Origin: Bacillota bacterium
GTDB taxonomy: Bacteria; Sysuimicrobiota; Sysuimicrobiia; Sysuimicrobiales; Segetimicrobiaceae
Length of the DNA: 56,953 nt
Direction of reading: 5' to 3'
Assembly (NCBI GenBank): GCA_021324255.1
Contig: JAJPJL010000124.1
Coordinates: 1-56,953, forward strand
A program made the position numbers and the translations under genes. Positions 4,244-45,463 of this stretch are shown in pieces. Numbering within the stretch: position 1 is the stretch's first letter; every line of letters starts with the position of its first letter. The notes beneath the pieces were generated by a model that saw only the letters and a list, made by a program, of their open reading frames with translations, made no database searches and was not told the origin of the DNA.

Positions 4244-6010
4244 TCACCGCTCTGCTGGCAGGAACAGCCCCATCCCAAAATGGGAGTTTCGACCGAGCGC
4301 GATCGGGCCGCGGACCGGCGCGTCGAACTCGAGCTCGAAGCCGTAGGTGCCGAGCCCGGGGAAACAGCCAGGCTTCGCACGCCGCAGGATGCGAAACGCG
4401 GCCCAGGAGCGGTCCATCGGCTCCACCTTCCGTGGCGCGGGGAGCCCGCGGCACTCCAGCTCCTGCACGACTTGGTCCGGCGGCGCGTCCCGCAAACCTC
4501 CACCCCTACGCTTGGGATGCCGGACCGGGAGGAACGGGGTGTGGGACCGGAACCGCCGAGCGGGGCCCGAGAACGGGTCCCGGTCCGCACGGCGCAACCG
4601 GATCGCGGCGCCGAGGAGCGGAGGGAAGGTCGTCGCGAGGACGAGCGACCGCTCCACGGCACCCAGTCCCTCCGGGCACCAGACGGCGAAAGTGTCGATC
4701 TCGCGCTCCGCACTCGCCGCGACGAGGAAGTGAACGTGACGGTGGTCGTCCTCGATCCTACCTCCGGCCGGGCTTCTGCCACTCAGCCGGGGTGGGATCG
4801 CGTGCGCGCCGAGGCGCCGGCCAGCCACGCCGAGCAGGCGCCGGCGGAAGATCTCGCACACGGTGATCGCGTCCGCCAGCCGAGGCGGCACCGCAGACTC
4901 GAGGGAAAAGGTGAGGAGCGTTTCGCGCAGCATCGCCATCCGGGGCTCGCGCCGCTCTCGGTCAGCCCACTCGACGCTCTCTAGCCGCATCCGGCACTCG
5001 GTCCCAGGGCCCACGAGCGGTCTCGGCGGAGCGAGAAGATGAGGGATCGCGCTCGTCGGAGTCGGTGACGGGAATCGAATAATCATACGCTCGCCCCTTC
5101 CGTCCAGGTCGTCGTCCGCTAGCGAGACCGTCGCGTCCGGCGGCAGGCCGTGACACGCCCGCGCTACGAGATCGCGAAGTTCCGGTTGTGGGCGCAGCGC
5201 CATGCGCGTTCCCGCCTCCGGCCGATACGGATTCGAGACAGCGGGCCGGAGGACACCTTCTAGCCGATGAATGACCCCCTTCGCTGCGGGTTGTCTCGCC
5301 GGCGGCAGGACCCGCGGAGGAGTCGCGCGCACATACTGCACCCAGCATGATCCAGGTGGGGCCGGCATCGCTTTCAGAAGCCCGTCGGCCGTGGAAACCT
5401 CGAGTTCCGCTCGGGAAACTGTCGGCTGCGGAACGAGGAGCCGAACCATGACCCGCTCGCCCCCGGCGGTGCCGAGCTCGGCCTCCCTCGGCACCGCCAA
5501 CGTGTCCTCCGAACGCGGCGCCGGCAGATCGCCCAAAATGCGCCACGCGCACACCGACACGCTTTGGCCCAGGTATGGCATCGAGTTCAACAGCGTACCC
5601 AGCAACGACCGCTCGTCTGCCGGGAGGTCCACCCCCGGCCAGGCGACGCACAGCTCCCGGTCGGTCGAGACCGCCAGGAGCGTGTGACCGTTCTCGCTCC
5701 GCTCGGTGGCGTCGGGCGCGTCATCGAACTCGAGCTGGGGCATCCACTGCGCGTACACGATTTCGGTCACCGGGGGGAGCCGGTACCGCGGTAGCGCGGT
5801 GGCCAACCTCTGCACGAGCGCCACGGTCGCCTCCACGAGGGCGTTGTCGCCGGCACGGTACGCCGTGGCCACGAGCGCCCGGGCAATCCGCCACGGCGAG
5901 GGCGGCCACTCGACGTTCGCCACATGCTCGCGCCGCGAACGGAACCAGGGCGTGGCCGCGTAGCGCCCGAAGGGGAACCGTGCGCCCAAAACGAGGTCGG
6001 TGCGCGTCAC
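4244..6010 (-). CDS. csb2: Type I-G Cascade subunit Csb2 (Cas5-Cas6 fusion, GSU0054 family)
   Basis: 588-residue protein. The N-terminus (LGARFPFGRYAATPW..., then VEWPPSPWRIARALVA) is typical of Csb2, and the C-terminus ends in a glycine-rich RAMP segment, ALGRNSHFGMGLFLP. In type I-G this single protein supplies both the Cas5 role (holding the crRNA 5' handle) and Cas6 (cutting the repeat hairpin). The start ATG overlaps the csb1 stop (ATGA). It is the last gene of the effector block; downstream the continuity of the cas operon is broken by a 516-bp stretch holding the PIN remnant. Subdomain borders cannot be set from sequence alone. Confidence 0.93.
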   Translation of the reverse strand: MTRTDLVLGARFPFGRYAATPWFRSRREHVANVEWPPSPWRIARALVATAYRAGDNALVEATVALVQRLATALPRYRLPPVTEIVYAQWMPQLEFDDAPDATERSENGHTLLAVSTDRELCVAWPGVDLPADERSLLGTLLNSMPYLGQSVSVCAWRILGDLPAPRSEDTLAVPREAELGTAGGERVMVRLLVPQPTVSRAELEVSTADGLLKAMPAPPGSCWVQYVRATPPRVLPPARQPAAKGVIHRLEGVLRPAVSNPYRPEAGTRMALRPQPELRDLVARACHGLPPDATVSLADDDLDGRGERMIIRFPSPTPTSAIPHLLAPPRPLVGPGTECRMRLESVEWADRERREPRMAMLRETLLTFSLESAVPPRLADAITVCEIFRRRLLGVAGRRLGAHAIPPRLSGRSPAGGRIEDDHRHVHFLVAASAEREIDTFAVWCPEGLGAVERSLVLATTFPPLLGAAIRLRRADRDPFSGPARRFRSHTPFLPVRHPKRRGGGLRDAPPDQVVQELECRGLPAPRKVEPMDRSWAAFRILRRAKPGCFPGLGTYGFELEFDAPVRGPIALGRNSHFGMGLFLPAER

Positions 6011-7056
6011 GTCCTATCCGCCTCCGCGCGACTCCGGCTCTTCTTCCTGGCGTTGTCCGCGTGGTAGCGTACGATCAAAGGCTCCGCGCGCTCTCGCCCA
6101 GTCGCTTCTCTACACCGGCGCTGGCACTCGGCCAGGAGTTCCGCGAGCGTCGGCAAGGTCCAGCCCTGGGGCAGGCGTACCGCCGGCTCTCCCCTAGGCA
6201 CCAGAACACAGCGGCTACGGCGCCGCGGCCATGCGTCCACCAGTTCCCGGATCATCAAGACCGCTGTGGCGATGAGCGCGCGGTTGGCGTTATCCGGAAG
6301 ACCGTACGAGCGCAACAGCGCCAAGTCGAGGAGAATCGGTGCGACGATCCGCTCGGCGCTGACCTCTGCCGTATAGTGCGGCACCTCGCCCAGGACGGTC
6401 TCGCCCTCGGCGCCGGCCTGTCCGACACCAACTTCGCTCGGATGGTCGGCCGTCTTCTGCCCGCCCACCTGGACGCTCTGCATCTGTACGCCTAGCGCGT
6501 CGATCCTCGCGCTGAGCGCGCGGCTCAGCCGCGCCCGACCGCCCCAGATTCCAGCGAACCAACAGCCGTGGAGGAGCGTAAGGGGGTCGTGCTCCCACAC
6601 CGCCTGGTCGAGCTTGCGGACGTAGGGGGGTTGGGCGTCGGCGAGCCGCTCCTCCAACCGCTCCTGGAAACTCTTCGTCCCGTTTTTGCCCTTACCGTCC
6701 AGTACAGTGCCGTTCATGATGGCGTGGGCGCCCAGGCGGTGCGCCGCCATGCGGCTCGAGGTGTAGTAACCTTCCTTCGCGTCGATGACCTTGACCCAGG
6801 GAAGCGCGGCCACGGAGTCCTTCGGGACGCACTCGGCCTCGTCCCACACCGTGAGCTCGAGCTGGTTGGCCAGGGACGCCACCGAGTCCACGACCGCGGC
6901 CAGACGTCCGTCCGGCGCGTCGTAGAAAGAAGGCCCGGTGTTGGCGAACGTCGTGAGCTGGATCGTGGGCGGCCCTAAGGGCTCCAGCGCGACTTCCAGA
7001 GCCAGATAGCGGTCCTTGAGGAGATGATCGAGAGCCCGGGCGACGTCAGTGCTCAT
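6007..7056 (-). CDS. csb1: Type I-G Cascade backbone subunit Csb1 (Cas7 family, GSU0053)
   Basis: 349-residue Cas7-type RAMP protein that would coat the crRNA as the repeated backbone of the interference complex. Family features include the early LQLTTFANTGPSFYDAP-like segment, SSRMAAHRLGAHAIMNGTVLDG near residues 100-120, and a mid-protein SERIVAPILLDLALLRSYGL. The gene overlaps csx17 upstream by 11 bases and csb2 downstream by 4, so effector subunits are translated from one message. The C-terminal tail is rich in Arg/Lys (NARKKSRSRAEAD). Length is in the normal range for Csb1. Confidence 0.94.
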   Translation of the reverse strand: MSTDVARALDHLLKDRYLALEVALEPLGPPTIQLTTFANTGPSFYDAPDGRLAAVVDSVASLANQLELTVWDEAECVPKDSVAALPWVKVIDAKEGYYTSSRMAAHRLGAHAIMNGTVLDGKGKNGTKSFQERLEERLADAQPPYVRKLDQAVWEHDPLTLLHGCWFAGIWGGRARLSRALSARIDALGVQMQSVQVGGQKTADHPSEVGVGQAGAEGETVLGEVPHYTAEVSAERIVAPILLDLALLRSYGLPDNANRALIATAVLMIRELVDAWPRRRSRCVLVPRGEPAVRLPQGWTLPTLAELLAECQRRCREATGRERAEPLIVRYHADNARKKSRSRAEADRT

Positions 7057-9241
7057 GGGAAGCCTCCTCGAAAAGCTCAGGGGGTGTGATGCACACCATG
7101 CGAGTCAGGCCTGCTCTATCCTGTTTATCGAACGGGAGGAGGACTGCCAGGGCGAGGCGCGGTCCGCCCCCAGGCAGGGGTGCACCGACAGGCGGAGCGG
7201 GCAGGAGGTCAAGCCCTCGGCGCCGGAGCTCGCGGTCGGCGAACACTCGCGCACCATCGTACCGGCCTGTGAGGAGCAACGAGGCGAGCCTCTGGGCGCG
7301 CTCCAGCCAAGCCTGGCTCTCCCCCGCCTGAACCTCATCTTGCTGCGCCGCGAGGATCAAACGGGCGGCATCGGCTCCAATGACGACCCAGTTTCGGTCG
7401 TTCACGGCAGCTCCCCCCGCCTCCCCGGCCGCTGTCCGGCCTTCCGGCGACTCCACAACGCCCTCGTGGCTGTCGGCGCTCGACGCCTCGCCCGTCTCCG
7501 GCAGGGAGATCCCGGCCAGCGCCTGAGCGAGGAGCCCGAGCCGACGCTCGCCTTCGCGGCCCAAGGCGCCGGAGAGCAAAAACGCGACGTCGGCGGCGCG
7601 CACGGCTCCGCGCCGCTGCAGCGGCCCCCCCGTTGCGCCACGTCGCACGGCCAGCAGCACCAGGCGTACCAGCGCCTCCACAGGCTCGCCGACCCGATCA
7701 AGGTCAGGCCGGGAGCCGTCCGGATCCAGGAACCAGCGGCCGGCCTCCTCGCGCTGCGGCAGCGCGGTGGATCGCAGGAGGCTCGTCTCGTTTCTCATCA
7801 TTCCCGTGACCAGGGCCCTCGCGAGCCGGAATTCCGGAGATCGGTCGTTGGCCAATCTGAACCACGCTGACGAGAGGTAAGGAGCTCGGACTTCGGGAAC
7901 GGATTCGCGAGTAGCTCGAGCCGCAGGAGCCTGGAAAACCACGAGCGCCGTCAGTACCTCCTGCACCTCCCGGTCACGCCCGAGCCGGCGTCCGGTCGGG
8001 CCGGCACGCTCCACACCAAGAGCGGCGAGGGCCTCCTCGAGCCCGCGCCGAGCCACCTTCAACGACGCCGGCTCAAGATCGGGATCCACCCTCCGCTCGA
8101 CCTGGCGAAGAAACGGCACCACCTCCTCCAGGGCGCGCCGGGCCGTCTCCTGTCCGTGCGCCCAGATTGTCCCTCGATGCACGGCGGACCGGTAACGTGG
8201 GTCACTGCCGGGGACGAAGGCGAACCGGACCAGCCTGTCGAACCCGAGACCCCACGCTGCCTGGGCTGCCTGCGCGAGAACCGCATCCAGGCTGTCGCGC
8301 GCCACCCCTCGGTTCGTCCGGAGGCGCATGGTCGCGAGCAGGTGGCGAAACACGCGGGTAGTACAGGGCATGCTCCAGAGGGGTGCAAGTAGCTCGAACG
8401 TGCCTTCCGGATCCTTCCGAAGCTCCGGCCCTCCGCTAGGGCCCACGCCGATCGACCGCGCCTGCACCATCAGGGGAAAGGCGGTTTGCACCATAGCGCC
8501 GACCTCCGCGCGCCGCGTGGGACTTCCACGAAAGGCGCGGAGACCTTCCAAAACCAAGAGGATATCCCAGGCGCTTGTACGGGCCTTCTGCTTAGTCGCC
8601 TCGACATCTGCGGCGGAGAGACCCGGCCCCGTCGCGCGGCCCGATTGGTATGCCCCAAGCACCTTGTTGACCACGGAAGTCTTCTTCCACACCGCAAGGT
8701 CGAGGGGCTCGTCGCGCACCAGCGCGGCAAGCACTTCCGGCAACCCGCCGCGACGGAGATTCGACCGGCGGAGAGTCTGGAGGGCATCCCGCTCCGCCTT
8801 CTCGACCTCGCTACGGCCGAAGCCGCCCCCTTGCCCTAGTAGCGGGTTGTTTTCCTTGTCGCTCACCTCCTGGCCCCGCCGCCCGCGCCGATCGTCCGCC
8901 TCGAGGCTGCGCGGCACGGCGCAGGCGTCAAACCAGTCGAGCTCGGCCTCGTGCGCGCTGTTTCGCAGTTCGGCGAACTCCTTATTCCTCTGCTTCCCGC
9001 GCCACGGTGTCCGCACGAGCACGATAAGCGGAGATCGCGGGTCTAGAACTTTCTCTGCGATGTGCTCGCAGAGAGCACCAAAGTCCCCGCACCCGAGGTT
9101 CAGGATGCCGTCTTCGTCCCACCACGCGCGCACAGCCTGGTCCATCTTCCCGGCCAGGAAAAAGAACCCGAGACCGCGGAGGTAAGCGTCCAGGCTGCTG
9201 GCGTTGCAACCCGGAAGGCGGTGGGTGACGAGGCTCTTCAT
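7046..9241 (-). CDS. csx17: Type I-G large subunit Csx17 (Cas8g / Cas8u2)
   Basis: 731-residue Csx17 family protein, the Cas8-like large subunit that recognises the PAM and recruits Cas3 in type I-G. The start matches the family: a short leader followed by HRLPGCNASSLDAYLRGLGFF and then the DEDGILNLGCGDFGAL segment. No catalytic motif is expected or seen. Its ATG overlaps the end of cas3 by 4 bases and its 3' end overlaps csb1 by 11. The gene order cas3-cas8g-cas7-cas5/6-cas4/1-cas2 is exactly that of type I-G. The central part is low in recognisable motifs, so assignment rests on the N-terminus and the context. Confidence 0.93.
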   Translation of the reverse strand: MKSLVTHRLPGCNASSLDAYLRGLGFFFLAGKMDQAVRAWWDEDGILNLGCGDFGALCEHIAEKVLDPRSPLIVLVRTPWRGKQRNKEFAELRNSAHEAELDWFDACAVPRSLEADDRRGRRGQEVSDKENNPLLGQGGGFGRSEVEKAERDALQTLRRSNLRRGGLPEVLAALVRDEPLDLAVWKKTSVVNKVLGAYQSGRATGPGLSAADVEATKQKARTSAWDILLVLEGLRAFRGSPTRRAEVGAMVQTAFPLMVQARSIGVGPSGGPELRKDPEGTFELLAPLWSMPCTTRVFRHLLATMRLRTNRGVARDSLDAVLAQAAQAAWGLGFDRLVRFAFVPGSDPRYRSAVHRGTIWAHGQETARRALEEVVPFLRQVERRVDPDLEPASLKVARRGLEEALAALGVERAGPTGRRLGRDREVQEVLTALVVFQAPAARATRESVPEVRAPYLSSAWFRLANDRSPEFRLARALVTGMMRNETSLLRSTALPQREEAGRWFLDPDGSRPDLDRVGEPVEALVRLVLLAVRRGATGGPLQRRGAVRAADVAFLLSGALGREGERRLGLLAQALAGISLPETGEASSADSHEGVVESPEGRTAAGEAGGAAVNDRNWVVIGADAARLILAAQQDEVQAGESQAWLERAQRLASLLLTGRYDGARVFADRELRRRGLDLLPAPPVGAPLPGGGPRLALAVLLPFDKQDRAGLTRMVCITPPELFEEASHEH

Positions 9242-11646
9242 TTCTTACGCTCCTCAGCGCTCGCCCGCTGGTCCGCGACTCGCAGAATCGCCTCCAGGTA
9301 CGCAAGCCGGAAGGGGCCGAAACGATCCCGGAGGTCAAGAACTCGATCCACCCAGCTGGACTCGTTCAAACTGCCGATCCGCATTAGCGACAGGTCCACA
9401 CGGAGGGGTCCGAACCGCTGGCCGTCGAGAGTCACCCCCGGCACGGCGTCCCCCTCGCGAACGCCCAAGCACACAGCAACGGCCGGATCGGCGTCGTCGG
9501 GAAGGACGCGCGGCGTGAGTCGGAACTTCCCGTGGTGCGCTCCGGCGAGGTACGCCGCGAGGTCCACGTCACGCGACCCACCGTGCTTCTCCATGATACA
9601 GAGCGCGGAGAGGACTTCGTGCCGGAAGGCAAACGGAGGCCGCCAGTGCTCGCGGCCGGGTCCTTTTGCGTACACCCGACTGTCGGGCGGACGTTCGCCG
9701 GCCCAACGGGCAAGGCGGTTCTGGAACTCCGGATGCGCCTTGCCTACGTCGTGGGCACTAGCCGCCAGGCGCAGGGCGGCCACCCAGGCTGGGTCGAGCT
9801 CCACCCGGCCGAGAATCGCTTCGAGTTGCGCCAACACGTGCTCCGTGTGCTCCTCAAGGGTGATCCACCGGCCCGGCAAGACGCTCTCGCGGTCCTCCGC
9901 ATCATCGTCTGGGGCTTCCCCACCAGCCGTGCCCACGGGGTTGACATGAATGCCCTTCCGGCCCGTCCACCCGCGCACGGCGTCATAACCTCCCGCGTCC
10001 GCCCGCACGAGCAACACGTCGCCGGGCACGATGGAAGCCTCGCTCCTCGCAGGTTCCCAACGACGGCGCGCGTAGCTCCAGCGCCAGGGCGCAAGGGCGA
10101 CCAGGGTTTTCTTCTCCCAGACCGGCACAGGACATACTTCCGCTCGATCCGGGATGGGCTCGTCCGGACTCGGGCCTTGCTCCGGGAAGTCACGCCACGC
10201 CACCCCAACGTCCAGATCTTCGCGCACGCGGACGAAGCGTCCCACGTCGGGATCGTCGCCATCCAGCGTGGGGTCGGTATCGAAGAGGTCCAGGAGATCG
10301 GGCGCGCGGAGGACCAGCGAGACGGGCCGCGACCCGAGGAGCATCCGGACACTTCGTTGGTCCGCGAGCAGCCTCATGATGTCCGCCGGCGCGAAGGACC
10401 TGCCCTCCAGGGCAGCGAGAGCCCTTCGTGCGCTGCGGAGCGACTCCGGATCGTACGGTCGAGCGAACTCCTCGAGGCGCTTGTCCCCAGGGTCGAGCCA
10501 CACGAGCCGCGCCGGCGTGCGGTTCCGCTTCCCGGTCCGATTGAGTCTCCCCGCACGCTGAACGATGCTGACCCATGGAGCGAGATCCGTGACGAGGGCA
10601 CCCGCGTCGAGGTCGAGCCCCGCCTCCACCACTTGCGTCGAGACGACGACCCGGCCACCGGGGGCCGGCGGCTGGTCGAGTTGCCTGACAAGCCGCTCCC
10701 GGTCGGCCGGCCGGAACCGGGAGTGCAGAAGCAGAAGGTCAATCTCCTTTGGGGCGGCCGCCCGGATCTCCTGGTACAGCTCTAGCGCCCGGCCCACCGT
10801 ATTGGCGAGGACGAGGGTAAACCTGGGTGCGTCCTGCACCTCAGCCAACGCCCCGTGCTCCCGCAGAACCACCCGGGCCACGGCCGCTGCGTTCCCCGGA
10901 TCGATCTTCTCCCGCACCACTGTCTTGGGGGCGCGCAGCCGTTGTCCCAGCGGCCCCCGATGGTCGGCCGAGCTGAGGCATGCGTAGGCAGCGTTGCCGA
11001 TGGACAGATGGTCCACGGTCTCAAGCCATGAAGGCTCAAGGGTCGCCGACATCCATACCGTCCGGACCGGTACCGCAACGCCGAAGCGTTGCCGCAGGCC
11101 CTGGAGCTGGCAGCTCGTCGCCACTGCGGCGTCCATGAGCTGGATCTCGTCGAAGACCCAAAGGCAGTCGCAGTTCAGGAGCCCGAAGTCGATGGGCCAC
11201 CTTGAGCGCCCACATCCGAAGCCACGGTTCAGCGCGCGGGAAAGAAGCATGTCGATAGTGCCGACGAGCACGGCCTCCGCCGCCGGATCCAAAACCCACG
11301 AGTCGTCTGCCATACCGCCCATCACAGGATAGACTCGGACCGGCCGCTCCAGGACCCCCGCAGACACGAGCCGGCCGAGCGCCTCGCGGACTCGTGCGAG
11401 CGTCTGCTCGACCAGGACCCGCATCGGGAGGGCGAGAACGAGACGGCGCGGGATATCCCTTCGCTGGGCTGCATCCGTCCGGAACCGCCGCCACAACCAG
11501 TCGAGCAACACCGCCTCTGTCTTTCCGGAGCCGGTGGGCGCGACGATTACCGACGCTGGCTGCGGCCGCAACGCAAGATCGCGTTGCCAGGGATAGGGGG
11601 CGTAGCCCGTAGCCGAGCGAAAGATGTTGTCGAACTCATCGACCAC
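9238..11646 (-). CDS. cas3: CRISPR helicase-nuclease Cas3 (helicase first, HD at the C-terminus)
   Basis: 802-residue protein. The SF2 helicase comes first: Walker A APTGSGK (36-42), Walker B variant DEIQ (166-169), SAT (200-202), then VVSTQVVEAGLDLD and QRAGRLNRTG. The HD nuclease is at the C-terminus, with SAHDVGK near residue 630, further histidines in FRHEV and GAHHGKF, and a late Asp in VADQ. This swapped helicase-HD order is characteristic of type I-G (I-U). The start is the GTG at 11646, with a Shine-Dalgarno GGAGG 7 bases upstream. It is the first gene of the cas operon; only 75 bp separate it from the rmuC stop, so it may be read through from rmuC or have a promoter in that gap. All key motifs are intact. 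Confidence 0.96.
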   Translation of the reverse strand: MVDEFDNIFRSATGYAPYPWQRDLALRPQPASVIVAPTGSGKTEAVLLDWLWRRFRTDAAQRRDIPRRLVLALPMRVLVEQTLARVREALGRLVSAGVLERPVRVYPVMGGMADDSWVLDPAAEAVLVGTIDMLLSRALNRGFGCGRSRWPIDFGLLNCDCLWVFDEIQLMDAAVATSCQLQGLRQRFGVAVPVRTVWMSATLEPSWLETVDHLSIGNAAYACLSSADHRGPLGQRLRAPKTVVREKIDPGNAAAVARVVLREHGALAEVQDAPRFTLVLANTVGRALELYQEIRAAAPKEIDLLLLHSRFRPADRERLVRQLDQPPAPGGRVVVSTQVVEAGLDLDAGALVTDLAPWVSIVQRAGRLNRTGKRNRTPARLVWLDPGDKRLEEFARPYDPESLRSARRALAALEGRSFAPADIMRLLADQRSVRMLLGSRPVSLVLRAPDLLDLFDTDPTLDGDDPDVGRFVRVREDLDVGVAWRDFPEQGPSPDEPIPDRAEVCPVPVWEKKTLVALAPWRWSYARRRWEPARSEASIVPGDVLLVRADAGGYDAVRGWTGRKGIHVNPVGTAGGEAPDDDAEDRESVLPGRWITLEEHTEHVLAQLEAILGRVELDPAWVAALRLAASAHDVGKAHPEFQNRLARWAGERPPDSRVYAKGPGREHWRPPFAFRHEVLSALCIMEKHGGSRDVDLAAYLAGAHHGKFRLTPRVLPDDADPAVAVCLGVREGDAVPGVTLDGQRFGPLRVDLSLMRIGSLNESSWVDRVLDLRDRFGPFRLAYLEAILRVADQRASAEERKK

Positions 11647-29379: not shown

Positions 29380-30051
29380 ATGACTCAGACCCATCCGGCA
29401 CTGCGGCGCGGGGCGATGCGGATCGTCATGGTCGTCCTCTGCGTCGCGGCGCTCACGCGCGCGGGCGCCGCCGCCCAGCCGTCGTATCCCTTATACTACG
29501 ACTTTCAGATTCCGCTCGCCTTGCCGGGGTTCTCGGTGACCGACACGGCGACGCAGACGCCGGCGCTCGGAGGGGTGATCCCGCCGTCGGGTACGGTGAA
29601 CTCCGACGACAAGGTCCAGACCTTCTACACCGGGACCTTCGCCGGCGGCACGCTCGGCGGCCTCACCGTCAGGGGCGGTCAGTTTCGGTATGGCACCGGC
29701 GCGAGCAAGTCCGCTGGCGGCGGCAAGTTTTCCCTGACCACCGACGCGGGTACCGTGACGGGCGACATCCTGATGACGACGGACGGGAATCGCACGACGC
29801 TGCTCTTTTTTGGCACGTACCTCGGCACCCGGATCGAGTTCGCCCTCGCGGCCCAGGGCGGCATGGAGATCGGCGGGCCCGGGTATACCGCGACGGGCCT
29901 GGCCCAGACGGGCTTTGCCTCTCATGAAGCCTACATGGCCGCCGTGCAAAAGGCTGTCGCCTCGGGCTCCGCGACATCGCGGCAGCAGGTCATCGCCGCC
30001 GCCGACACAAACGCGCGCCTCGTCAAGAGCTACCAGGATCGCGGACACTAG
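29380..30051 (+). CDS. Secreted hypothetical protein
   Basis: 223 residues. A strong Shine-Dalgarno GGAGGTG precedes the ATG at 29380. An N-terminal signal (RIVMVVLCVAALTRAGAAAQ) with an AxA cleavage site indicates export. The mature region is rich in Gly, Thr and beta-strand patterns (FTGTFAGGTLGGLTVRGGQFRYG, KFSLTTDAGTVTGDILMTTDG), followed by a short helical tail. No known domain is recognised. The stop TAG lies inside the CTAG that begins the first copy of the ~216-bp repeat element, so the element directly abuts the gene. Confidence 0.75.
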   Translation: MTQTHPALRRGAMRIVMVVLCVAALTRAGAAAQPSYPLYYDFQIPLALPGFSVTDTATQTPALGGVIPPSGTVNSDDKVQTFYTGTFAGGTLGGLTVRGGQFRYGTGASKSAGGGKFSLTTDAGTVTGDILMTTDGNRTTLLFFGTYLGTRIEFALAAQGGMEIGGPGYTATGLAQTGFASHEAYMAAVQKAVASGSATSRQQVIAAADTNARLVKSYQDRGH

Positions 30052-30264
30052 CGCAGCATCTTTGATGCTTGACGAGGGTAAATGGGCCGGCCGGATCTGC
30101 TCGGAGCGGGCGTTCGACGCCCGCGGTATGCACGTGGGCCTCGGCATTTTCGATTGCGCGGCGGACAAGGCGACAACCTGGAATCGGGCAGGCGTCGGTC
30201 TGCGGAGCGAAGAGTAGGTCCGGCCGGCTCGAACCCTTGCCGGAGTTGGGCAATGACGTGTTAG
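30048..30264. repeat. Dispersed ~216-bp structured element, copy 1
   Basis: 217 bp that align end to end with 44046-44261, about 85-90% identical outside a more variable patch near 30124-30165. The ends can pair (CTAGCGC with GTGTTAG). Inside are hairpins AGCATC-TTT-GATGCT, GCGGGCGT-TCG-ACGCCCGC, CCTG-GAAT-CGGG and TCCGGC...GCCGGA. The left CTAG carries the stop of the upstream + gene; the right end is 21 bp before the stop of the convergent glycosyltransferase gene. The family is not recognised. It could be a MITE-like element, a structured RNA, or a two-way terminator. Confidence 0.85.
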
Positions 30265-30285: not shown

Positions 30286-31449
30286 CTAGACGCCTAGGTG
30301 CCGGAGGACGTGCCCGAGCACGCGATCGGCGTCGAAGTATTCAGCCGCCAGCTCGCGCGCGGCCCGGGCATGCAGCGCGTAGTCCGCGGTGATCCGGGCG
30401 AAGCTCTCCACGATCTCGTCCATGGTGCGGAACGCAAACAACCCGCGCCCGACCGGCACGGCGGCGCCAAACCCGGTGTCCTGGGTCACGACCGGCCGCC
30501 CGGCGGCCAGGTAGCACGCGCTGCGGTCGCTGAACCACCCACTTCGCAGCCGGATATTCTGGTCCTTGGCGACCGTAAACTCGCCGCGGGACCGGCGGAC
30601 GTAGTCCCGGTACGGATCCAGGTCGTTGGACAGCGCCAGCGCGTCCCGCACGCGCCAGCCACTTCCCTCGAGCAGGCGCACGGCGTCCGGGTCCCCGCAG
30701 GCGAGCGTCAGCTCCAGCGGAACCGGCACCCGGCGCGGGAGGTCGATGAACTTCATGAACTCGACGTGCTTGCTCCACCGGTAGACTTCCCCCCGCCACT
30801 CGATGTCGTTGGACTGCCTCCAACTGGCGACCGTGGTAAACGGCGCGTCGTCCGGGGGCGGCCCGGCGGCCCACCAGTCGAGGATCACCGGCGGGCGCGT
30901 CGGGATCCAGGCAAACCGCTCCACGGGCACGCCGCAGTCGGCCGCGCCGAGGTTCTCGGCGTACGTGAAATGGTGCGTGTGCGCGCCGAGAAACGCGATC
31001 GCCGCGGCATCGCCCTTGGCGACCTCGATCTGGCTGCGCACTGGGTCGGTCTCGAGGTAGACCCGCACGGGCACGCGCAGGTAGTCCTCGCCGAGCAGCG
31101 TCGCGCCCGACAGATTGAGCAGCGCGTCGGCGCGCGCCAGGACGCGGTGGAGTTGGCGCTCGTCGAGCCCGTAGGCGCGCCGCCCCTGGGAGGCCGCGCG
31201 AAATACCCAGCGGTCTCCGAGATCGCACCGTGCCATCAAGCGGCTGAGATAGGCGACGGTGTAGCTCGGGTCGTCCGTCACGGCGTTGCGCTCGGCATCG
31301 TACGGCCAGGCGCCGGTATCTTCCACGTAGGTGACGTCGCAGCCGCACCGCTGGAAGCCGTGGAGGTAGTGCAGGGTCTGCCACGCGACGCCCGCGAACG
31401 GCAGCCGCCCCGCGATACCCAGGACCACCAGGGTGGGACGACCGGTCAT
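30286..31449 (-). CDS. Glycosyltransferase-like protein (CgeB/DUF3880-like)
   Basis: 387 residues from the ATG at 31449, which overlaps the stop of the ABC exporter gene (ATGA). The N-terminal VVLGIAGRLPFAGVAWQTLHYLHGFQRCGCDVTYVED has the sugar-donor-fold look of GT-B enzymes. The C-terminal half has WFSDRSACYLAAGRPVVTQDTGFGAAVPVGRGLFAF, a block shared with CgeB-like glycosyltransferases. Substrate unknown. Its tight coupling to an ABC exporter suggests the product of the pair is a glycolipid or other exported glycan. It is convergent with the secreted protein gene across the repeat element. Confidence 0.75.
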   Translation of the reverse strand: MTGRPTLVVLGIAGRLPFAGVAWQTLHYLHGFQRCGCDVTYVEDTGAWPYDAERNAVTDDPSYTVAYLSRLMARCDLGDRWVFRAASQGRRAYGLDERQLHRVLARADALLNLSGATLLGEDYLRVPVRVYLETDPVRSQIEVAKGDAAAIAFLGAHTHHFTYAENLGAADCGVPVERFAWIPTRPPVILDWWAAGPPPDDAPFTTVASWRQSNDIEWRGEVYRWSKHVEFMKFIDLPRRVPVPLELTLACGDPDAVRLLEGSGWRVRDALALSNDLDPYRDYVRRSRGEFTVAKDQNIRLRSGWFSDRSACYLAAGRPVVTQDTGFGAAVPVGRGLFAFRTMDEIVESFARITADYALHARAARELAAEYFDADRVLGHVLRHLGV

Positions 31450-43693: not shown

Positions 43694-44049
43694 CCCCGCC
43701 GCGGGTGTTCGTGTACGGCACGCTGCAAGACGAGGCACTGGTCGTGCGCCTGATCGGGCGCCGGCTACCCTGGCAGCCCGCGGTGCTCCCCGATCACGAA
43801 CGGCGGCTGGATGCCGCGATCGGGTACCCCGTGATCCACCCGGCGCCGGGCGCGCGCGTCCACGGGCGGGTGCTGGACGGGGTGGACGCGGCCGCCCTCG
43901 CCGCGTTCGACGCCTACGAGGGCGGCGAGTACCGCCGTCAGGTCGTGTGGGTCGAGACCGAGGGCGGCGCGGTGGACGCGTATGTCTACGTGCCGGTGCG
44001 GGACGGAGCTGGGGCGGCGCGGGCCCGAGATGCGGGCGGGCGCGCCTAG
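43690..44049 (+). CDS. Gamma-glutamylcyclotransferase-like (AIG2 family) protein
   Basis: 119 residues from a GTG at 43690 that overlaps the XRE gene stop (GTGA). The family N-terminal VFVYGTLQDEALV holds the YGxL substrate loop. The segment ARVHGRVLDGVDAAALAAFDAYEGGEYRR contains the catalytic-type Glu (YEGGEY). These proteins make 5-oxoproline from gamma-glutamyl peptides, though many bacterial members have unknown substrates. The stop TAG is part of the CTAG that begins repeat copy 2. Confidence 0.85.
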   Translation: MTPPRVFVYGTLQDEALVVRLIGRRLPWQPAVLPDHERRLDAAIGYPVIHPAPGARVHGRVLDGVDAAALAAFDAYEGGEYRRQVVWVETEGGAVDAYVYVPVRDGAGAARARDAGGRA

Positions 44050-44261
44050 TGCAGCATCTCTGATGTTGGACGAGGGTAGATGGTCGGCCGGATCTGCTCG
44101 GAGCGGGCGTTCGACGCCCGCGGGCGCGCGCGCGTCCCTCCGCCCTTCCGATTGCACGGGGACAAAGCGACAACCCGGAATCGGGTAGGCGTCGATCCGC
44201 GGAGCGAAGGGCAGGTCCGGCCGGCTCGAACCCTGGCCGGAGTTGGGCAATGACGCGCTAG
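44046..44261. repeat. Dispersed ~216-bp structured element, copy 2
   Basis: 216 bp matching copy 1 (30048-30264) end to end. End stem CTAGTGC/GCGCTAG; three of its seven pairs change relative to copy 1 but stay paired (wobble or Watson-Crick). Internal hairpins: GCATC-TCT-GATGT, GCGGGCGT-TCG-ACGCCCGC, ACCCG-GAAT-CGGGT, TCCGGCC...GGCCGGA. Both CTAG ends provide stop codons: TAG of the cyclotransferase gene (+) and TAG of the aminotransferase gene (minus). Seen only twice in this window. Confidence 0.87.
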
Positions 44262-45463
44262 GTGGCGCGCCGTGGATAACGCTCCAGCGCCCCGCGCATC
44301 CGCTCGAGAGCTTCGGTAATCGCCTCCACCGAATTCGCGTAGCTCAGCCGCAAGAACCCCTGGCCGTGGGCACCGAAGGCGGTGCCGGCCAGCACCGCCA
44401 CTCCCGCCTCCCGGAGCAGGTAGTCCTGCAGCCGCGCGGCGTCGGCGTCCACGCCCTTCGTGCTCGGAAACGCGTAGAATGCGCCGAGCGGCTCCCGGCA
44501 CGCCACGCCCGGAAGGGCGTTGAGCCCTTGCACGATCACGTCGCGCCGCCGGCGAAACTCCCGCACCATGCGGTCCACGCAGTCCTGCGGCCCGCGCAGC
44601 GCGGCGATCCCGGCGATCTGCGTGAATGCCGCGGTGCACGAGTTGGAGTTCACCATCAGCTGCGTGACCCGGGCGGCGAGGTCCGGCCGCATCACGCCGT
44701 AGCCGAGCCGCCACCCCGTCATCGCGTACGTCTTGCTGAAGCCGTCGAGAATCACGGTCTGCGGCTGCATGCCGGGCAGGGACGCCGGGCTCTCGAACGT
44801 GCCCTCGTAGAGGATGCGGCCGTAGATCTCGTCGGACAGCACCGTGATCGGCCGGCCCCGCACCATCTCCGCGATCGCCTCCAGGTCGCCCCGGGCCAGC
44901 ACGCCCGCCGTGGGGTTGTGCGGCGAGTTGAGGACGACGAGGCGCGTCCGCGGCGACAGCAGCCGGCGGAGATCCTCGGGATCGGCGCGAAACGCCCGGT
45001 CTTCCCGCAGGACCCACGGGACCGCCCGGGCGCCGGCGAACCGCGCCACCGACTCGTAGATCGGAAAGCCCGGATCGGGATAGATGACCTCGTCCCCCGG
45101 GTCGATCAAGGCAAGCGTCACGAAAAAGATCACCGGCTTGCCGCCCGGCGTGATGACGACGTGCTCCGGGGTCACGTCGATGGCGCGCGTGCGGGCGACG
45201 TACTCGGCGATCGCCGCGCGCGCTTCCGGCAACCCGGCCGCGGGCGTATAGTGCGTGAAGCCGTCGCGCAGCGCCCGGATCCCGGCCTCCTTGATGTGCT
45301 CCGGGGTGTCGAAATCGGGCTCGCCGATCTCCAGGTGGATGATGGACCGGCCCTGCGCCTCGAGCGCCCGGGCCCGCGCGAGCACCTCGAACGCGGTCTC
45401 CGTGCCGAGCCGGCCCATGCGATCGGCCAGGTGCAACGCGGGCGCGGCCGGATGGACGCTCAT
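44258..45463 (-). CDS. Class I/II (AspC-like) aminotransferase
   Basis: 401 residues, fold type I PLP enzyme. The family start YLRIGEPDF-like IIHLEIGEPDFDTPEHIKEA, the PLP-ring region PGGKPVIFFV, the NPHNPTAG-type block NSPHNPTAG, Asp-Tyr in VLSDEIYG, the PLP lysine in DGFSKTYAMTGWRLGY and the C-terminal Arg in FLRLSYANS are all present. It transfers amino groups between amino acids and oxoacids; the specific substrate is not known. Its 3' end lies in the terminal CTAG of repeat copy 2. ahcY lies 22 bp upstream on the same strand, so the two are probably one operon. Confidence 0.93.
   Translation of the reverse strand: MSVHPAAPALHLADRMGRLGTETAFEVLARARALEAQGRSIIHLEIGEPDFDTPEHIKEAGIRALRDGFTHYTPAAGLPEARAAIAEYVARTRAIDVTPEHVVITPGGKPVIFFVTLALIDPGDEVIYPDPGFPIYESVARFAGARAVPWVLREDRAFRADPEDLRRLLSPRTRLVVLNSPHNPTAGVLARGDLEAIAEMVRGRPITVLSDEIYGRILYEGTFESPASLPGMQPQTVILDGFSKTYAMTGWRLGYGVMRPDLAARVTQLMVNSNSCTAAFTQIAGIAALRGPQDCVDRMVREFRRRRDVIVQGLNALPGVACREPLGAFYAFPSTKGVDADAARLQDYLLREAGVAVLAGTAFGAHGQGFLRLSYANSVEAITEALERMRGALERYPRRAT

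Follow-up and report, generated by a model that had tools for sequence, protein, structure and literature searches.

The question raised by this locus is what kind of sequence would occur twice, as a segment of about 216 bp, between genes arranged tail to tail in the window, a term used here for the whole 56,953-nucleotide stretch of DNA that was analysed. The earlier note proposed a small mobile element, a structured RNA family or a two-way terminator, and favored a structure maintained by selection. The two copies, described here as resembling a miniature transposable element (MITE), and their parts are as follows.

30048..30264, + strand: copy 1 of the MITE-like element, 217 bp, running from CTAG to TTAG (family by BLAST; covariance-model E 4.5e-57)
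30048..30099, + strand: left terminal inverted repeat of copy 1, imperfect, about 52 bp
30106..30124, + strand: internal hairpin GCGGGCGTTCGACGCCCGC of copy 1, the most conserved part of the family
30213..30264, - strand: right terminal inverted repeat of copy 1, imperfect
44046..44261, + strand: copy 2 of the MITE-like element, 216 bp, running from CTAG to CTAG (covariance-model E 2.7e-50)
44046..44097, + strand: left terminal inverted repeat of copy 2
44103..44121, + strand: internal conserved hairpin of copy 2
44210..44261, - strand: right terminal inverted repeat of copy 2

As the earlier note had stated, the two copies align over their full length, with 187 of 218 columns identical and three gaps. 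The terminal stem differs at three pairs and stays paired in both copies (CTAGCGC/GTGTTAG in copy 1, CTAGTGC/GCGCTAG in copy 2), but the description of these ends as covarying does not hold, since every change is a one-sided wobble, from G-C to G.U or from C-G to U.G, and is thus not compensatory. For the internal stems, 17 of 75 pairs are changed between copy 1 and copy 2, and ten of these remain paired, one of them through a double change. When the same substitutions are placed at random, 47% of the changed pairs stay paired on average (P = 0.10), and the internal changes, which had been read as mostly stem-preserving, are therefore not beyond chance. The fold of copy 1 is nevertheless a stable one, with z = -4.8 on the + strand and z = -3.3 on the - strand.

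The ends of the copies had also been read as doubling as stop codons. This is the case for both ends of copy 2, where TAG at 44047-44049 terminates a GGACT-domain gene and CTA at 44258-44260 is the stop codon of an aminotransferase gene (44258-45463, - strand), and for the left end of copy 1, where the upstream + strand ORF terminates in TAG at 30049-30051. It is not the case for the right end of copy 1, as the gene on that side stops further on, at 30286.

The two copies belong to a larger family. In the genome that contains the window (G000; 3.74 Mb, 142 contigs), BLAST recovers 13 long copies of about 166-254 bp, most of them 86-90% identical to copy 1, as well as many shorter pieces, which excludes the possibility that no further copies exist in the genome. 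Some 20 further matching places are found by BLAST in a sister species of the same genus (G001), with no match in a third congener (G002) or in the remaining genomes of the family, and a single 27-base match in one genome of the order (G032) was taken as chance. The search of the genome and its relatives with a covariance model, which the earlier note had recommended, was made with a model built from eleven copies. At E<=1 it gave 38 matches in G000 and 60 in G001, counts that include second-strand matches of the most palindromic copies. The same model gave no match in G002 at this cut-off, and nothing at E<=0.01 in 41 of the 43 genomes of the order. Plasmid and phage collections searched by distant BLAST, and genome-contig and viral-contig collections scanned for exact patterns, contained no match, and no Rfam family was matched at the gathering cut-off or at E<=1. 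As far as tested, the family is confined to one genus of uncultured bacteria. The impression that no known family matches is thus borne out for Rfam, the plasmid and phage collections and the exact-pattern scans, but the kind of element is well known, and what is described here is a previously unlisted family of an already known kind.

In 68 copies, similarity starts and stops sharply at CTAG; the left end is exactly CTAG in 33 of them, and most of the others are one or two changes off. Copies range from 47 to 334 bp and contain no protein-coding gene. Each end is one arm of an imperfect inverted repeat, about 52 bp long and about 70% identical to the other arm. When the left-end consensus is aligned with the right-end consensus in reverse, the scores for the two species are 49.6 and 57.1 (shuffle maxima 37.9 and 35.5). 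The inner parts of the repeats, GGCCGGCCGGATCTG and CAGGTCCGGCCGG, form a long stem. Both ends are kept across copies and the middle is variable, giving rise to minis of 47-57 bp, versions of 67-91 bp, the common 217-bp form, and versions of 259-334 bp that contain additional hairpins or a module of 22-23 bp, CTGGCTCACGCCGTAGGC. This module recurs within copies L010, L014, L029 and L041 of G000 and G001. When read by eye, L010 has the module at two places, as direct repeats, and L014 has it once with everything between absent, as expected from recombination between the direct repeats of a copy of the L010 type. In the longer copies of G001 (L036, L096, L220 and others) an extra insert contains a hairpin like GGTCTCGGCCCTCATGAATCCAATCCAACGAGGGCCTCGACC, after which some have a CCTCCGGCGGCTTGGGCCGCC hairpin. 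Across 21 aligned copies, the internal hairpin GCGGGCGTTCGACGCCCGC is altered only once, in one copy.

One copy in G000 (C101:6325-7600, corresponding to L015 1501-2777) is interrupted by an IS110-family transposase gene (DEDD_Tnp_IS110, Transposase_20). The gene breaks the copy at the base of the conserved internal hairpin (CTCGG / GGAGCGGGCG), which is also the position of the 22-23 bp module in other copies; G001 is without IS110 at the matching place.

Evidence for mobility comes from four orthologous pairs of filled and empty sites. In the first pair, a copy on contig C13 of G001 corresponds to a bare CTAG in G000, with flanks that otherwise align closely, and in this CTAG the stop codons of two convergent genes overlap. 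For the second, G000 C101:14646-14862 is filled, G001 C111 has a bare CTAG, and the site in G002 is also empty. The third consists of a filled site at G001 C96:19167-19384 and a G000 site on C43 that reads GCGCTAAGCC, which is TTAG on the gene's strand (CTAA/TTAG). In the fourth, G001 C96:33016-33234 is filled and the G000 site is empty, intergenic and without CTAG. Each end of a filled site has the tetramer or a version that differs from it by one base, and the first three empty sites have one CTAG or TTAG, so that the target-site duplication typical of MITEs appears as one tetramer when empty and two when filled. The suggestion of a small mobile element is upheld by these sites, in addition to the many copies, sharp ends and inverted repeats. 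It would also be conceivable that ordinary intergenic segments were duplicated by recombination along with flanking DNA, as the 86-90% identity of the G000 copies might indicate. However, copies in unrelated contexts lose their similarity abruptly at the CTAG on either side, and presence and absence at orthologous sites are precise; the plain duplicated-segment reading is thus refuted, and retains next to no probability.

The length of the duplication is less obvious, as two- and four-base duplications look identical in single filled/empty pairs. In the 28 copies in which both ends contain TA, the left and right tetramers have the same last base in 24 (P=0.024) and are identical throughout in 16 (P=0.022), with first-base agreement not beyond chance (P=0.12), and the comparison leans weakly towards a duplication of four bases, YTAR, rather than of TA. 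By themselves, the filled/empty pairs cannot distinguish duplication of TA from the insertion of a unit that carries CTAG as its own terminus, and in this respect they are compatible with REP/BIME-like palindromes moved by a REP-associated Y1 (HUH) transposase, which would insert 3' of a TAG-like tetranucleotide without duplication. REP units are 20-40 nt long and tied to Y1 transposases, and REP/BIME palindromes are sometimes struck by IS110-type insertion sequences. The family shares with them its numerous, mostly extragenic palindromes, a conserved GGTAG near the inner stem, and one copy interrupted by an IS110-family gene. The unit here is 217 bp, however, bounded on each side by CTAG and a long terminal inverted repeat, and double-ended terminal inverted repeats together with last-base agreement fit a DDE element better than a REP-like one, which is decidedly unlikely.

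When coding frames are called by a GC-by-codon-position test, a copy end is the in-frame stop of a neighbouring gene in 43 of the 68 copies, 29 times with the left end and 14 times with the right end, a bias (P=0.03) that may reflect a degree of strand preference. Outside the copies, 22 of 69 CTAG sites (32%) in 318 kb of host sequence are in-frame stops, in comparison with 33 of 978 (3.4%) for GTAG/CTAC, 2.8% for ATAG/CTAT, and 8 of 64 (12.5%) for CTAA/TTAG. On these counts, an enzyme that prefers CTAG, together with the loss of within-gene insertions, can account for most of the siting, and the enzyme would not have to recognise stop codons as such.

The window itself has 20 CTAG tetramers, of which ten lie within the CRISPR-Cas region (4981-10782); they are scarce elsewhere, and the region is possibly foreign DNA. 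Type I-G CRISPR-Cas genes are found at 4244-11646, namely cas3g, csx17/cas8g, csb1/cas7g and csb2, the csx17 match being just below its cut-off. A CRISPR array at the window's left edge (1-713) has at least 10 repeats, CTTCAATGGGGCCGCCGTTTCTCAACGGCGGAAAC, with a spacing of 71-75 bp.

The position between convergent genes that was described for both window copies is correct for these two but does not extend to the family, in which 27 of the 68 copies lie between tandem genes, 18 between convergent genes and 4 between divergent genes, the remaining copies not being assigned. Copies are accordingly not always found in convergent gaps. These numbers bear on the possibility that the element is a two-way terminator between convergent genes, multiplied by duplication. 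Such a role would suit the two window copies and the other convergent cases, but not the tandem and divergent ones, nor the precise empty sites at CTAG, and a scan of copy 1 and its flanks for intrinsic terminators found no GC stem followed by a T-run. A terminator function of this type is very unlikely.

A further possibility is that the element represents a transcribed, structured RNA, such as the 3' UTR regulators or processing sites proposed for ERIC or NEMIS, that spread and was kept for its + strand fold. In 63 of 68 copies the + strand has the lower MFE (mean z -3.20, vs -2.55 for the - strand), and the left end adjoins a gene stop twice as often as the right. For the first alignment (A1), the covariation score is 0.163 versus 0.135 for shuffles, with 0 of 500 shuffles exceeding it, and pair counts beat all shuffles on three of five measures, but the measure of pairs with double change is not extreme (29/500), and related sequences are known to surpass shuffle controls of this type. 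The RNAalifold consensus and pair counts give a modest covariation signal, which related copies alone could produce without selection. One clear compensatory switch, from C-G to G-C in the inner stem, is common to the G001 subfamily.

Transitions at Watson-Crick pairs provide a more direct comparison, as without RNA selection they would give G.U, which is kept, and A.C, which is broken, equally. In G000, 17 transitions are wobble-preserving and 10 are breaking (P=0.25), and in G001 the counts are 28 and 25 (P=0.78); double changes that kept or lost pairing number 0:2 and 4:4, respectively. The claim of a selected structure or structured RNA family is thus not sustained, as there is no significant excess of pair-keeping change, and versions of 47-91 bp without the central fold persist. 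Nor does any Rfam family match, even at E<=1. Divergence at paired and unpaired positions is 0.058 vs 0.076 in one set and 0.089 vs 0.139 in the other, a difference that leaves room for a weak constraint on pairing, though these positions include the end sequences that a transposase must recognise. Judged from these substitutions, individual copies appear to decay without detectable selection on pairing. It is possible that the element, once transcribed, influences the adjacent mRNA at its 3' end, but a family maintained as a structured RNA is quite unlikely.

Among known systems, the nearest are MITEPsy1 and the MITEs of the IS630 type. Correia elements occur with and without an internal segment, and the variants found here are alike in this regard. 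Insertion sequences of the IS630 / Tc1-mariner group and their MITEs (RUP, Correia/NEMIS) duplicate TA, and TA is present at the ends here; no sequence relation to them was found, however, the centre here is longer and more structured, and G000 and G001 have no cognate gene with matching ends. The preference of IS630 for TA within 5'-CTAG-3' (Tenzen and Ohtsubo 1991) is cited by title in the reference list of PMC2170065.

In the case of MITEPsy1 of Pseudomonas syringae, PMC3189936 describes a 100-bp element, thought to derive from ISPsy2 (possibly IS5), that inserts at CTAG or YTAA with duplication of four bases, and for which transposition has been observed. The family described here is similarly short and gene-less, with terminal inverted repeats and insertion at CTAG, the duplication leaning weakly to four bases, but differs from what is given there for MITEPsy1 in its end sequence, in its size, and in the 18-bp repeats and known likely parent IS of the latter. 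Seating at stop codons is not described for MITEPsy1 in the relevant passages of PMC3189936. For bacterial MITEs in general, PMC2229807 reports mostly 5'-TA-3' termini, a stem formed by the 5' end and 3' end, and stable transcripts, with roles for ERIC and NEMIS RNAs in mRNA stability or processing, and an effect of ERIC on mRNA that depends on its orientation relative to the gene. ERIC, or IRU (127 bp, enterobacteria), is likewise depicted there as an intergenic palindrome that has TA at its termini and folds stably as RNA. No relation to ERIC was found in Rfam or by sequence, however, and the orientation bias here is weak (29 vs 14).

The enzyme that would move the element was sought in G000 and G001, both draft, incomplete assemblies, and no autonomous element with matching ends was found in them. 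Each genome has one DDE_3 (IS630-type) gene, with no convincing matching ends in the flanks of either, and PF13586 (IS5-type) was found in neither. When three genomes were scanned with a sequence model of the ends, 64 and 119 end matches were obtained, and 14 loci with solitary or wide-spaced ends, when read, were just truncated, longer or mini copies.

Taken together, the family is, with a probability of roughly 85%, one of non-autonomous MITEs. The sequence comparisons show a multi-copy, gene-less element with sharp ends and long imperfect repeats, present or absent at orthologous sites, with CTAG, or sometimes TTAG, at the empty site and at both ends of the filled one, and it is filed as a MITE because of the features shared with known bacterial MITEs, the enzyme class being left open. 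A DDE-type transposase acting in trans would cut at the ends, and the element would be pasted into CTAG-like (YTAR) sites, duplicating TA or all four bases. Insertions inside genes would be lost, and survivors would sit exactly at stop codons, because CTAG is scarce and about one third of CTAGs are stops. A duplicated CTAG would return TAG to the gene on either side, likely rendering the insertion nearly neutral. The stable fold would follow from the inverted repeats and the internal hairpin.

Several observations fit a MITE less well. The repeats, at about 70% identity, are less alike than in MITEs that moved recently; conservation is higher in the internal hairpin than at the ends, which is not expected of a plain MITE; and one of the four empty sites (opposite C96:33016) is without CTAG in the other species. 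The failure to find an autonomous partner and the left-end bias (P=0.03) also count against it, as do the two window sites, which are flipped in the sister species. Contig C89 of G001 is collinear with both window loci, and between the same gene ends it has 47 bp at the site of copy 1 and 57 bp at the site of copy 2. Both sequences are mini versions of the element in the orientation opposite to that of the window copies, scoring 38/36 and 58/24 against the left/right end consensus on the reversed strand (shuffle maxima 25). Elsewhere, orthologous counterparts in the same orientation are also present (L029/L038, L025/L036 and L015/L043, and, by eye, L004/L225). Simple inheritance does not explain the opposite orientation at the two window sites; flipped occupancy could arise via repeated insertion into the same scarce CTAG, or via conversion or inversion of an old copy. 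An element locked to stops would be one way to view this, with overlapping tail-to-tail stops acting as a refuge, sites being re-occupied or flipped, and the hairpin needed for mobilisation by an undescribed transposase or RNA-guided enzyme, but this scenario is unlikely.

The family also holds a caution, in that a good fold and a matching pair of copies can mimic a selected RNA without a significant excess of pair-keeping change. As a MITE family, it would represent a parasite with a target tetranucleotide that frequently serves as a stop codon, such that it lands where it is least harmful and the stop is regenerated on both sides.
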